Source: Methylobacterium sp. 17Sr1-1
GTDB taxonomy: Bacteria > Pseudomonadota > Alphaproteobacteria > Rhizobiales > Beijerinckiaceae
Assembly: GCF_003173775.1 (NCBI RefSeq)
Contig: NZ_CP029552.1
Span: 1,220,001 to 1,284,000, forward strand
Length of the DNA: 64,000 bases
Reading direction: 5' to 3'
The notes below the pieces were generated by a model that was given only the letters and a program-made list of their open reading frames with translations, searched no databases and was not told where the DNA came from. Shown here in pieces: positions 27,402-30,705 of the stretch; the stretch's first letter is position 1; every line of letters starts with the position of its first letter. The position numbers were made by a program, and so were the translations under genes.

Positions 27402-28403
27402 TCAAGTGCCCCGCTTCGCCACCGCCGCCTCGACCAGCGAGCGGATCGCCGCCCGCACCGGCTCCGGGGTCTCATCGCGAGAGAATTTCGCCTCGATCTC
27501 CTCGCGGATCAGGGCGCCGTCGTCGCTGCGCGCGAGGTCGGTGGTGGTCTCGGCCTGGAGGAGGGAGACGAACGCGCTCTCGACCCGGCCGATCGCCTCC
27601 GGCGAGGCGTCGGCCGCGACCTGGCGGCCGGTGAGGTCGAACACGTCCGCCGCGAAGGGCAGCCGCTCCTCGCGGAGCGACAGGTCGCCCGAGAGCACGA
27701 AGACGGCCGGGACGTGGGCGATCAGGTCGATCGAGCCGCGGGTGATGTTGCCCGGGTTGAACCACAGCGTGTCGCCGATCCGCACCGGGGCGTGGCGCTT
27801 GTGGACGTGGCCGTTGAGCGCCAGCGCACAGCCCCGGATCGCCTCCGGCGGCACCGCACCCGGATAGCCCGCCCCGAAGGCGAGGTCGTGATGGGTGAGC
27901 CAGACGACCGCGTCGGCCCCTGGGAAGAGCCCGCGCGCGTCCGACGGGATCGCCTGCCCGAAGGGCGTGGCGCCGAGGCCGATCAGGCGTTCCCCCACCC
28001 GGTACTGCGCCGCCGGACCGGATTCCGGCACCGCGTCGAGGACGTCGCTCACCGCCAGCATCGCCAGGCTGTCGCCGTCCGACAGGCGGGTGTGGCGGAT
28101 GTCGTGGTTGCCGACATTGGCGAGCGGGCGATGGCGGAACCCCTTGAGGACCCGGATCAGGCGCGACTTCAGGCTCTCGTCCGGCTCGACCGGCCGCTCG
28201 AACAGGTCGCCGAGGAGCACGGGCGCGAGGTCGCGGTCGTTGGCGAGCGCCACGCAATGCTCGAGCTTGGCCAGGACCGGCGCCGGCCAGTCCGGATCCT
28301 TGCGCCGGCCCGGCCGGCGCGACGAGACGTGCGGGTCGCCGACGACGAGGAGGCCGGCGCACGCGACCGGCGCGGCGTCGAGCCGCTCGCGGCCGAGGAT
28401 CAT
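27402..28403 (-). CDS. SbcD/Mre11-type metallophosphoesterase nuclease
   Basis: 333 residues with all calcineurin-type nuclease motifs: GDPH (22-25), LLGDLFE (63-69), NVGNHD (96-101), LTHHD (169-173) and NGHVHKRH (197-204). The C-terminal 100 residues are helical and could dock on the ATPase, as the capping and ATPase-binding regions of Mre11 do. It is the last gene of a three-gene minus-strand unit, and its ATG overlaps the stop of the SbcC-like gene by 4 nt. By family it should cut and resect DNA ends with Mn2+ under control of its ATPase partner. Confidence 0.88.
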   Translation of the reverse strand: MILGRERLDAAPVACAGLLVVGDPHVSSRRPGRRKDPDWPAPVLAKLEHCVALANDRDLAPVLLGDLFERPVEPDESLKSRLIRVLKGFRHRPLANVGNHDIRHTRLSDGDSLAMLAVSDVLDAVPESGPAAQYRVGERLIGLGATPFGQAIPSDARGLFPGADAVVWLTHHDLAFGAGYPGAVPPEAIRGCALALNGHVHKRHAPVRIGDTLWFNPGNITRGSIDLIAHVPAVFVLSGDLSLREERLPFAADVFDLTGRQVAADASPEAIGRVESAFVSLLQAETTTDLARSDDGALIREEIEAKFSRDETPEPVRAAIRSLVEAAVAKRGT

Positions 28404-30340
28404 GCCGCCTCCCCCGCCGGGGCGTGGCGGTGGCCGGCGAGGAGAGACGCGGGCGCGGCCGGCGTGCCGCAGGCCGGGCAGCGCCCGCCGGTCGAGGCCA
28501 GAACCTCCGCCATCTCGGCCTCCGCCGCCGCGAGCCCGTCGCGGGAGGCCGCCTCCCGGCCCTGCGCCTCGGCGAGGCGGCGGCCGATCTCGGCGAGGCG
28601 CCGGGCGGTCGCCGCGGCGTCCGGCCGGAGCACCGGCACGGGCGGCGCCGGAAGATCGTGCAGAGCCCGAACCCGCGCTTCCGCGTCGGCGAGGCCCGCC
28701 CGCAGCCGGCGCAGCCGGGCGGCGTGCGCCGCGGCCTGGGCGGTGTCGCGCGGCAGCGGCGCCTCCGGCGGCAGGTCCGCCAGGGCCGCGACCCTGCCCT
28801 GCGCCCCCGCGAGATCGGCGGCGGCGGCGAGGACGCGGCGGCCGAGCGCCTCGCGGTTGCGCGCCTCGGCCAGCGCCCGGCCGAGTTCCGCCCCGACCTC
28901 CGGACCCGGCAGGCCGGCGAGCGCCCGCGCCCGGGCGGCGGCGCCCGTCGCCAGGCGCTCGGCGCGGGCGAGGCGCTCGGCCAGGTCCGCGCGGGCGCGC
29001 AGGCGCGCGGCGGCTGCCGCCAGGGCGCCGGCGTCGTCGTGCAGCCCGTGCAGCGTCTCCGCCAGGGCGTCGAGCCCGTCGAGGGCCGCGAGGCGCTCGT
29101 GCAGGCGGGTGATCTCGCGCTCGCCCTCGCGGATCGTGCGCTGGTCCTCGGTGACGCGCTCGCGCTGGAGCGCCTGCATGTCGCGGATCAGCCCGGCCTC
29201 GCGACCGATCGACAGCACCGCCGAGCGCCGGGCCGGCTTCTCGCCGAGCAGGAAGACCGGGAATTTCTGGTGCGCGACGTGCACGTCGAGCTCCTCGACC
29301 CGGGTGATGCCGTAGAGCCGCTCGACCCAAGGGGGCACGTCGCGCCCGCCGGTCTCGAAGGTGGTGCCGGCCTCCTGCACCAGCGATCCGTCGGCCTCGT
29401 GCAGCGACCACAGGTTGACCGGGGTGCGCTTCGGCTGGCGGACGTAGCGGAGCACGCGGCCCCCGGCGACGCCGATCTCGACCCACGCCGCGCTGCGGCC
29501 GGCCCGCACCAGGCTGTCGCGCACCTCGCCGTAGAACACTGCCCGCAGGGCCCGGATCACCGTCGACTTGCCGTGGTTGTTGGGCCCGACGAGGGCGTTG
29601 ACGCCGGGCGAGAGCGGCAGGGTCGCATCGCAGAAGCCCTGGACGTCGATCAGGCGGATGAACCGGAAGCCCGGCCTGTCGGGCGTCCATTGCGCCGCGC
29701 AAAGACCGGCCGGGCCTTCGATCGCGACCCCGGTCTCGGGCCGCCCGGCGATGCGGCTGACGGTGAGGCCGGCCTCGAACCCCGCGACGTCGTGGTGCGA
29801 GATCGCCAGGCATTGCACCCCGAGCCGGGCGGCGCCGTCGTCGAGCACGCGGTAGAAGGCCGGCACCCGCTCGGGCGCGATCCAGCAATCGGCCTCGTCG
29901 AGGGCGAGGAAGCGGCCGACGCCGGCCTTGACCACCGCGATCAGGCGCAGCGCCATGCCGACGACGTTGGTCATCGCGCCGCCATTGTCCTCCAGCACGT
30001 CCTCGCGCCCGCCATCCGGGCGCTCGACCCCGATATCGAGGGCAGGCAGGCCGCGCTCGGTGGTCAGGTCCAGGCGCACCGGCTTCTCGCCGGGCAGGAC
30101 CTCCTGGACGAGCGCGGTGAGCAGGGTCTCGAAGGTCGCGACGCTGCGCCGGTTGGCGTCCTGCTGCAGCTCGCGCAGGTAGGTGTCGACGGCGTCGCGC
30201 TGCGCCAGCCGGCCTTTGGCGGCGGCGACGAGCCGCGTGCGCTCGGCGAGGGTTTTCTGGTCGCCGTCGCGGGCCGCCTCCAGGCGGGCGAGCAGGCGGC
30301 CGGCGCGGGTCAGCGCGTCCTGGATGTCGGCAGGCGTCAC
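28400..30340 (-). CDS. Circularly permuted SbcC/Rad50-type ATPase
   Basis: 646 residues from GTG 30340. Motifs occur in swapped order. A short N-terminal coil (1-75) leads into the usual C-terminal head lobe: signature-like EDNGGAMTNVVG (117-128), Walker B RFLALDEAD (143-151) and His-loop ISHHD (180-184). Only then comes the usual N-terminal lobe: FRFIRLIDVQGF (225-236), Walker A GPNNHGKST (252-260) and Q-loop AHQKFPVFLL (356-365). A roughly 240-residue helical coil follows, with the zinc-hook-like CPAC at 621-624, only about 20 residues from the end. In normal SbcC/Rad50 the order is Walker A, coil, hook, coil, Walker B. Upstream is a small coiled-coil gene 23 nt away; downstream is the nuclease gene, overlapped by ATGA. 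An SOS box precedes the unit. Confidence 0.85.
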   Translation of the reverse strand: MTPADIQDALTRAGRLLARLEAARDGDQKTLAERTRLVAAAKGRLAQRDAVDTYLRELQQDANRRSVATFETLLTALVQEVLPGEKPVRLDLTTERGLPALDIGVERPDGGREDVLEDNGGAMTNVVGMALRLIAVVKAGVGRFLALDEADCWIAPERVPAFYRVLDDGAARLGVQCLAISHHDVAGFEAGLTVSRIAGRPETGVAIEGPAGLCAAQWTPDRPGFRFIRLIDVQGFCDATLPLSPGVNALVGPNNHGKSTVIRALRAVFYGEVRDSLVRAGRSAAWVEIGVAGGRVLRYVRQPKRTPVNLWSLHEADGSLVQEAGTTFETGGRDVPPWVERLYGITRVEELDVHVAHQKFPVFLLGEKPARRSAVLSIGREAGLIRDMQALQRERVTEDQRTIREGEREITRLHERLAALDGLDALAETLHGLHDDAGALAAAAARLRARADLAERLARAERLATGAAARARALAGLPGPEVGAELGRALAEARNREALGRRVLAAAADLAGAQGRVAALADLPPEAPLPRDTAQAAAHAARLRRLRAGLADAEARVRALHDLPAPPVPVLRPDAAATARRLAEIGRRLAEAQGREAASRDGLAAAEAEMAEVLASTGGRCPACGTPAAPASLLAGHRHAPAGEAA

Positions 30341-30363: not shown

Positions 30364-30705
30364 TCAGCGGCCCTGGTCGAGGGCGTCGAGGCGGTCCTGG
30401 ACCGCGCGCAGGGACTGGGCGAAGGCCTCGACCCGGCGGGCATTCTCGGCCCTGGCCTCCTCGATCATGCGGCGGATCTCGGCCTCGTCGTCGGTGCCCA
30501 GCTCCTCGCGGGCCTGGGTCCGGGCTGCGGCGAGCTCGGCGGTCAGGCGCTCGACGTCGCTCTCCGCCCGGATCCGGTCGGCGCGCAGGCGCTCGTAGGC
30601 CGGCTGCAGCGCCTCGAGGCGACGCAGGGCCTCGACGTCGGGACCCGGTTCCCGCCCACCCGGCTCTCGCATACCGGATTCGTGGCCCTTGCGGCTGCGC
30701 TCCAT
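30364..30705 (-). CDS. Small coiled-coil protein of the SbcC/SbcD-like unit
   Basis: 113 residues. After a basic/Gly-rich N-terminus (1-22), almost the whole chain is a charged, heptad-like helix (LEALQPAYERLRADRIRAES, AEIRRMIEEARAENARRVEA, LRAVQDRLDALD). No family recognised. The ATG at 30705 is chosen because GAGGAG lies 6-7 nt before it; ATG 30723 lacks a Shine-Dalgarno sequence. It is 23 nt ahead of the permuted ATPase, whose N-terminal coil is short, so it might supply coil mass to that protein. That last point is speculation. Confidence 0.65.
   Translation of the reverse strand: MERSRKGHESGMREPGGREPGPDVEALRRLEALQPAYERLRADRIRAESDVERLTAELAAARTQAREELGTDDEAEIRRMIEEARAENARRVEAFAQSLRAVQDRLDALDQGR

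Follow-up and report, generated by a model that had tools for sequence, protein, structure and literature searches.

Can the ATPase of a Mre11–Rad50 complex be built with its two lobes in reversed order? Models of Rad50 and SMC proteins assume a single chain that travels the length of the arm, turns at a closed hook or hinge and returns; in Mre11–Rad50, ATP brings two heads together, Mre11 sits at the base of the pair and the hooks lie at the tips of the arms. The question is raised by a gene in a 64,000-nucleotide stretch of Methylobacterium sp. 17Sr1-1 (contig NZ_CP029552.1, positions 1,220,001 to 1,284,000; hereafter the window), where a minus-strand open reading frame (28400–30340) with a GTG start codon and no internal stops lies between the gene of a small protein (s) upstream and that of an Mre11/SbcD-like metallophosphatase (M) downstream. 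In an initial annotation of this DNA, the 646-residue product was read as carrying signature, Walker B and H-loop ahead of Walker A, Q-loop and a CPAC motif, and all of these were found in that order at the positions claimed (Table 1). We consider it probable that the protein is a circularly permuted Rad50/SbcC subunit of a Mre11–Rad50 (SbcCD-like) complex, and that the ATPase of this complex came apart at the hook and was later joined again at the head.

For comparison of the two halves with canonical SbcC, hhalign was used with a set comprising E. coli SbcC and nine alphaproteobacterial SbcC proteins (a tenth was dropped by the motif filter), with or without T4. The N-lobe (profile positions 224–418) aligned with positions 6–229 of the SbcC profile at E = 1.1e-12, and in a second alignment set the hook (window residues 618–630) aligned with the CPLC region of E. 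coli SbcC (residues 503–515) at E = 1.3e-4. Among structures, the N-lobe profile matched Rad50 5f3w (E = 6.8e-13) and its end the Rad50 hook structures 6zff (E = 9.3e-7) and 1l8d (E = 3.1e-4); matches of the C-lobe profile were weaker, to the SMC C-lobe 6qpw_E (E = 2.7e-5) and the Rad50 C-lobe 3qkr_B (E = 4.2e-4). The whole-family profile matched the Rad50 chains 3qku_A and 3qkt_A in swapped order; on 3qku_A (whole-chain E = 1.4e-9), profile positions 228–266 fell on chain residues 5–43 and positions 132–209 on residues 279–356. The proposal of a permutant in which the former termini are connected and the hook supplies the new chain ends is supported at the sequence level by the N-lobe and hook alignments and by these swapped matches. 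When the permuted lobes were compared with free-standing lobes from split forms (described below), E values of 6.9e-38 for the N-lobe and 1.6e-22 over 180 columns for the C-lobe were obtained, and the link of the C-lobe through its free-standing counterparts is firm.

Scans of the ATPase with Pfam, NCBIfam and PADLOC gave matches mostly in the Walker A region; the NCBIfam list up to E = 1 has 15 families and lacks SbcC TIGR00618, whose curated score was not reached. As in SbcC/Rad50, there is an N-lobe with Walker A and Q-loop, a C-lobe with Walker B and H-loop (the key residues being invariant), a CxxC hook ending the outgoing arm and an adjacent Mre11/SbcD-like gene. The single-chain order Walker A, arm, hook, arm, Walker B is swapped, and because of this the protein is best classed as a permuted relative rather than filed as SbcC.

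Residue conservation was counted in an alignment (A4) of 47 permuted proteins, which are related rows and not independent. G121, N125, D148, E149, H182, G252, G257, K258, Q358, C621 and C624 are invariant; of the signature glycines, G120 is kept in 46/47 and G121 in 47/47. Both cysteines of CxxC, for which a zinc-hook role is predicted, are present in all 47 proteins, and a histidine occupies column 637 in 43 (it is shifted in two further rows and lacking in L065 and L066). The C-lobe is preceded by about 70 residues, helix-like by sequence, and separated from the N-lobe by a linker. The arm, measured from E381 to C621, is 161, 199–201, 239–242 or 280 residues long in 35 of the 47 proteins. 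These stepped lengths look as though 40-residue modules came or went whole. Autocorrelation of the arm sequence over lags 10–89 peaked at lag 40, with at least 11 other lags also above all 200 shuffles, which makes for a weak control.

A protein search with the window ATPase returned 346 matches at E ≤ 1e-3 among 8000 scored candidates, the closest named relatives, among the 120 of 346 matches listed, being Methylobacterium proteins. A search for further proteins with Walker B before Walker A and a C-terminal CxxC, as the initial annotation had suggested, uncovered a conserved family: both lobes were matched in swapped order in 58 of 60 loci confirmed by genome scan (the other two, L074 and L075, matched in the C-lobe only), and 21 of 22 plasmid records matched both lobes in one piece, a Cetobacterium record matching in the N-lobe only. 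Hosts of the permuted form are alpha-, beta- and gammaproteobacteria. The family is rare and patchy, with a full-length copy (E < 1e-200) in 7 of the 149 genomes of a family sample, where 138 genomes had some match at E ≤ 1e-3 and those beyond the seven were short or weak, and with the gene in 2/249 genomes of an order sample. Scans of viral contigs with the permuted profile confirmed 0/15 and 0/5 stretches, so that no permuted copy was seen there. An assembly error, named at the outset among the possible sources of the order, is unlikely, because the host genome is a single contig (6,542,583 bases, with one match to the ATPase) and the same order is shared by the 58 related loci.

The start codon of M overlaps the stop codon of the ATPase gene as ATGA. 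Although the M protein gave a weak Pfam match (E = 0.077) and no NCBIfam match, all eight matches of the M family profile to the PDB at E ≤ 1 are Mre11/SbcD/Rad32 entries. An M homologue stands downstream in 56/60 genome loci, and five metal-motif patterns were all present somewhere in the open frame in 48 of these 56 partners. Of the four loci without M, three (L024, L026 and L068) stop within or just past the ATPase match, and the fourth, L075, has a free C-lobe at the contig start with other genes after it. A homologue of s was found upstream in 59/60 loci, the sixtieth being L075, which starts inside its own C-lobe gene. Only a weak match links the s proteins of the permuted form to those of the split forms (E = 1.8e-4, probability 48%). 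A reading of s as a detached segment of the SbcC coil was tried and found no support, the best hhalign E values in three comparisons being 0.066, 0.3 and 0.095.

Table 1. Features of the permuted ATPase gene and its neighbours (positions in the window)
Feature	Position	Strand	Basis
Permuted Rad50/SbcC-like ATPase, 646 residues (C-lobe, N-lobe, arm, CxxC), putative	28400..30340	minus	Open reading frame; conserved family
C-lobe with N-terminal segment, residues 1–212	29705..30340	minus	hhalign against free-standing C-lobes; SMC/Rad50 C-lobe structure matches
Degenerate ABC signature LEDNGGA, residues 116–122 (GG kept, Ser replaced)	29975..29995	minus	Motif in 47-row alignment
Walker B FLALDE, residues 144–149	29894..29911	minus	Motif in 47-row alignment
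H-loop SH, S181–H182	29795..29800	minus	Motif in 47-row alignment
N-lobe, about residues 224–420	29081..29671	minus	Alignment to SbcC N-lobe; Rad50 structure 5f3w
Walker A GPNNHGKS, residues 252–259	29564..29587	minus	Profile match; 47-row alignment
Q-loop glutamine Q358	29267..29269	minus	47/47 rows; aligns with Q of IYIKQGE in Rad50
Outgoing arm, residues 395–620, with LP breaks	28481..29158	minus	Helical nature predicted from sequence
CPAC zinc-hook CxxC, residues 621–624, 22 residues before the C-terminus	28469..28480	minus	Aligned with SbcC CPLC; Rad50 hook matches
His 637 after CxxC	28430..28432	minus	His in this column in 43/47 rows
SbcD/Mre11-like metallophosphatase (M), 333 residues	27402..28403	minus	Metal motifs; Mre11/SbcD profile matches; downstream of ATPase
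Small coiled-coil-like protein (s), 113 residues, GTDD motif, start uncertain	30364..30705	minus	Homologues upstream of ATPase

Several observations weigh against a permuted Rad50 subunit. The two halves had been expected to align separately with SbcC; this held for the N-lobe, whereas the C-lobe (positions 28–209) landed in the expected place, on the SbcC C-terminal lobe (1061–1245), at a non-significant E of 0.05. Direct comparisons of the C-lobe with SbcC gave E values of 0.03–0.09 and probabilities of 0.6–1.6%, yet were colinear over about 174 columns, and its stretch on 3qku_A scores 12.2 bits alone. The CxxC end also matches the maturase 6me0_C weakly (E = 0.0028), short zinc motifs being prone to match elsewhere too. 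The residue preceding the signature GG, a serine in Rad50, is serine in 1/47 permuted proteins; since it is replaced in the other 46, the ATP sandwich may be different. The N-terminal segment, at about 72 residues, falls far short of the 161–280 of the outgoing arm, so a normal two-stranded intramolecular arm is not obvious, and s gave no significant hhalign match to the SbcC coil. Finally, GNHD and GHxH are absent from M in all five gammaproteobacterial plasmid clusters of another alignment, A2 (L006, L008, L007, L009 and L010), so nuclease action cannot be general to the family; in these clusters M could possibly be a dead nuclease retained as a scaffold.

The same loss of GNHD and GHxH would suit an SMC/Rad50-like DNA clamp or defence ATPase without nuclease action, in which M serves as a scaffold and the CxxC–His end is a zinc finger complete in itself, not a hook that dimerises. 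The histidine that follows CxxC in 43/47 proteins, the replaced signature serine, the copies on megaplasmids and the matches of the N-lobe to GajA and LmuB, both defence ATPases (best E values from 1.7e-8 to 3.5e-6), point the same way. However, the metal motifs are retained in five alpha- and betaproteobacterial rows of A2, window included, and by pattern in the 48 genome partners; the CxxC end matches Rad50 hook structures; and in PADLOC, whose matched families include GajA, LmuB and PtuA, the best stretches of the 25 families listed, out of 53, are confined to residues 227–312 and do not extend beyond the Walker A region. A clamp or defence ATPase of this kind is therefore judged unlikely.

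Split forms, in which the N-lobe with hook (N), s and the C-lobe (C) are separate genes, were found in a Bacillus phage, Bacillota plasmids, a Fusobacteriota plasmid and one metagenome-assembled genome (MAG). In phage vB_BboS-125 the products are an N-lobe with arm and CPLC (471 residues), s (78 residues) and a C-lobe (211 residues), and an AP2 gene lies between the first two genes. After its C-lobe gene there is an Mre11-like open frame (L002:7184–8299), in a stretch without an annotated gene. A search with the free C-lobe, admitting only proteins close to it in length, gave 611 relatives. With one C-lobe query the order N, s, C was recovered in 27/27 viral contigs, which include the query phage vB_BboS-125 and several near-copies; a search with the Alkaliphilus C-lobe confirmed 0/19, and one with the phage N-lobe returned nothing besides vB_BboS-125 itself. 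Gene order is M, N, s, C on the Alkaliphilus plasmid (Bacillota) and N, s, C, x, M on a B. velezensis plasmid. On a Paenibacillus plasmid a gene annotated as metallophosphoesterase ends in an N-lobe and is followed by s and C, and the Geobacillus counterpart of this arrangement has a weak M match (E = 0.041). On a Cetobacterium plasmid the N-lobe and a CPTC-ending coil occupy two overlapping frames, followed by s and C and, further on, by M; in the MAG (L074) the order is N, M, s, C. Two huge-phage contigs (485 and 266 kb) carry M, s and C, with no N-lobe found within the stretch examined, and L117 and phage Magritte (L146, L148) show the C-lobe alone within that scope.

On the Bacillota plasmids L114 and L115 an N-lobe forms the end of a long gene, which in L114 is annotated metallophosphoesterase, and s and C follow as separate genes. 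The huge-phage contigs L147, L149 and L150 bear M, s and C-lobe genes, and the L147 cluster stands with frames that, judged from their translations, resemble a Cas4-type nuclease and a sliding clamp. In a Prevotella record (L118:2882–4618) one frame has the N-lobe profile at 21–87 and the C-lobe profile at 318–535, which is the normal order.

That the lobes are known as separate genes, with free C-lobes lacking an N-lobe in the stretch examined at L117, L146 with L148, L149 and L150, is also what might be expected if the window protein were a chance fusion of two half-proteins, its order structurally meaningless and its lobes serving separate partners. This is hardly credible beside the invariance of the head motifs in 47 proteins, the company of N, s and C in all 27 viral loci and the maintenance of one permuted clade across three proteobacterial classes.

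To place the permuted order relative to the split forms, the two lobes were concatenated (39 rows, 423 columns) and the tree built from them was rooted on four canonical SbcC proteins. T4, one SbcC, permuted L003 and L055, and L013, L117, L146 and L147 were left out, as were five C-lobes for which no N-lobe is known, and L087, L104 and L106 were brought in. The 24 permuted rows formed one group (support 89/88), with the split MAG L074 as its sister (99/98, starred) and the ten split rows from Bacillota or phages grouped together outside (95/87); composition was unusual in 13 rows. In a C-lobe tree of 49 rows the permuted rows again formed one group (80/85), T4 gp46 (branch 5.3) fell beside L074 and the permuted rows with starred support, the program warning of long branches, and L013 and L147 were placed with SbcC. 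As split rows lie outside the permuted clade in the SbcC-rooted tree, the sequences favour split genes first and fusion afterwards, which refines the one-step origin from an intact SbcC initially envisaged. Rotating the N-M-s-C order of the sister L074 cyclically by two genes gives the permuted order s-C·N-M, and the lobe order of split N, s, C is that of canonical SbcC.

From the tree and gene order we infer a route of splitting, rotation and fusion. First, a break at the hook would have turned an SbcC-like gene into separate genes for N, the small protein and C; the operon could then have been rearranged, perhaps by tandem duplication and loss of the ends, so that N came to lie behind C; and C and N would have been fused at the head. 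A permuted form arising in one step from intact SbcC, or ancestral to split forms that underwent later fission, could appeal to the moderate support of the permuted clade (80/85 and 89/88) and to the 13 rows of unusual composition. We think it improbable, as the split rows branch off twice in succession outside the permuted clade and would call for two fissions, and their N, small, C arrangement keeps the canonical lobe order.

How such a protein might work we infer by analogy with Mre11–Rad50. The C-lobe and N-lobe would fold into a single ABC head, connected through the former C- and N-termini; the chain would start and finish at the arm, so that the zinc-hook CxxC comes to lie near the C-terminus. 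Two heads would dimerise on ATP, the neighbouring Mre11-like protein would bind them, and the complex might hold and trim DNA ends. Since the N-terminal segment is short, the returning arm may be completed by the small coiled-coil protein, which might alternatively bind the arm tip.

The presence of SbcCD in the same genomes was also assessed. In the host genome the best SbcC and SbcD model matches (21.8 and 28 bits, respectively) are both under the curated cut-offs. Within the family sample an SbcD match at E ≤ 1e-3 was found in 1/7 genomes with a permuted copy (G000, 28 bits) versus 89/142 others (one-sided Fisher p = 0.016, uncorrected for kinship), and an SbcD above cut-off in 0/7 versus 17/142 (p = 0.42). 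Another 23 genomes, 22 with permuted loci and one with a split locus, gave SbcD above cut-off in 0/23 versus 30/247 of the order sample (p = 0.059), and at E ≤ 1e-8 in 6/23 versus 118/247 (p = 0.036). Replacement of SbcCD by the permuted system is suggested by these figures, not proved, and mutual exclusion with SbcD is not strict. A wider proposal, tentative and somewhat short of an even chance, is that these proteins form a separate Mre11–Rad50 class spread by phages and megaplasmids, with Rad50 cut at the hook, a third protein completing the arm, re-fusion in swapped order in Proteobacteria, and residence instead of SbcCD in Methylobacterium and Microvirga-type genomes.

In keeping with the statement of the initial annotation that no such form was known, no description of a permuted or split Rad50 was found in the open-access literature searched. 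If the permuted reading is correct, the chain seems to have been opened at the hook in evolution, to have stayed open there in phages and plasmids, and to have been joined at the head. The system would directly test the need for arm continuity in passing the ATP signal from head to hook, would illustrate how splitting, rotation and fusion can permute a large ABC ATPase, and its natural split and permuted versions could be used for engineering.

Among known systems, fusions of Mre11 and Rad50 have been reported in Bacillus phage 0305phi8-36 and Anaerostipes, with one P-loop segment not observed (Yoshida et al. 2011, PMC3175470). They resemble the present genes as rearranged Mre11–Rad50 genes on viruses and plasmids, and differ in that Mre11 is joined to Rad50; the passages of that paper concerned with them describe no permutation. 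The split form could offer an explanation for the unobserved P-loop segment. Within PHROGs, phrog_16465 (exonuclease) matches the window N-lobe (E = 1.6e-18) and phrog_15167 (ATPase) the window C-lobe (E = 2.4e-5); phage vB_BboS-125 has both as separate genes in the order N, small, C, whereas the window has one protein in the reverse order. T4 gp46/gp47 is likewise a phage Rad50/Mre11-type pair, annotated SbcC-like and SbcD-like, but gp46, unlike the window and split forms, is one intact gene, with what we take to be the normal motif order. With SbcC of SbcCD (E. coli, TIGR00618) and Rad50, the window protein shares both ABC lobes, Walker A and B, Q- and H-loop, arm, CxxC hook and an SbcD/Mre11-like neighbour; it differs from them in its swapped lobes, its hook near the C-terminus, the replaced signature serine, the short segment before the C-lobe and the extra small gene.

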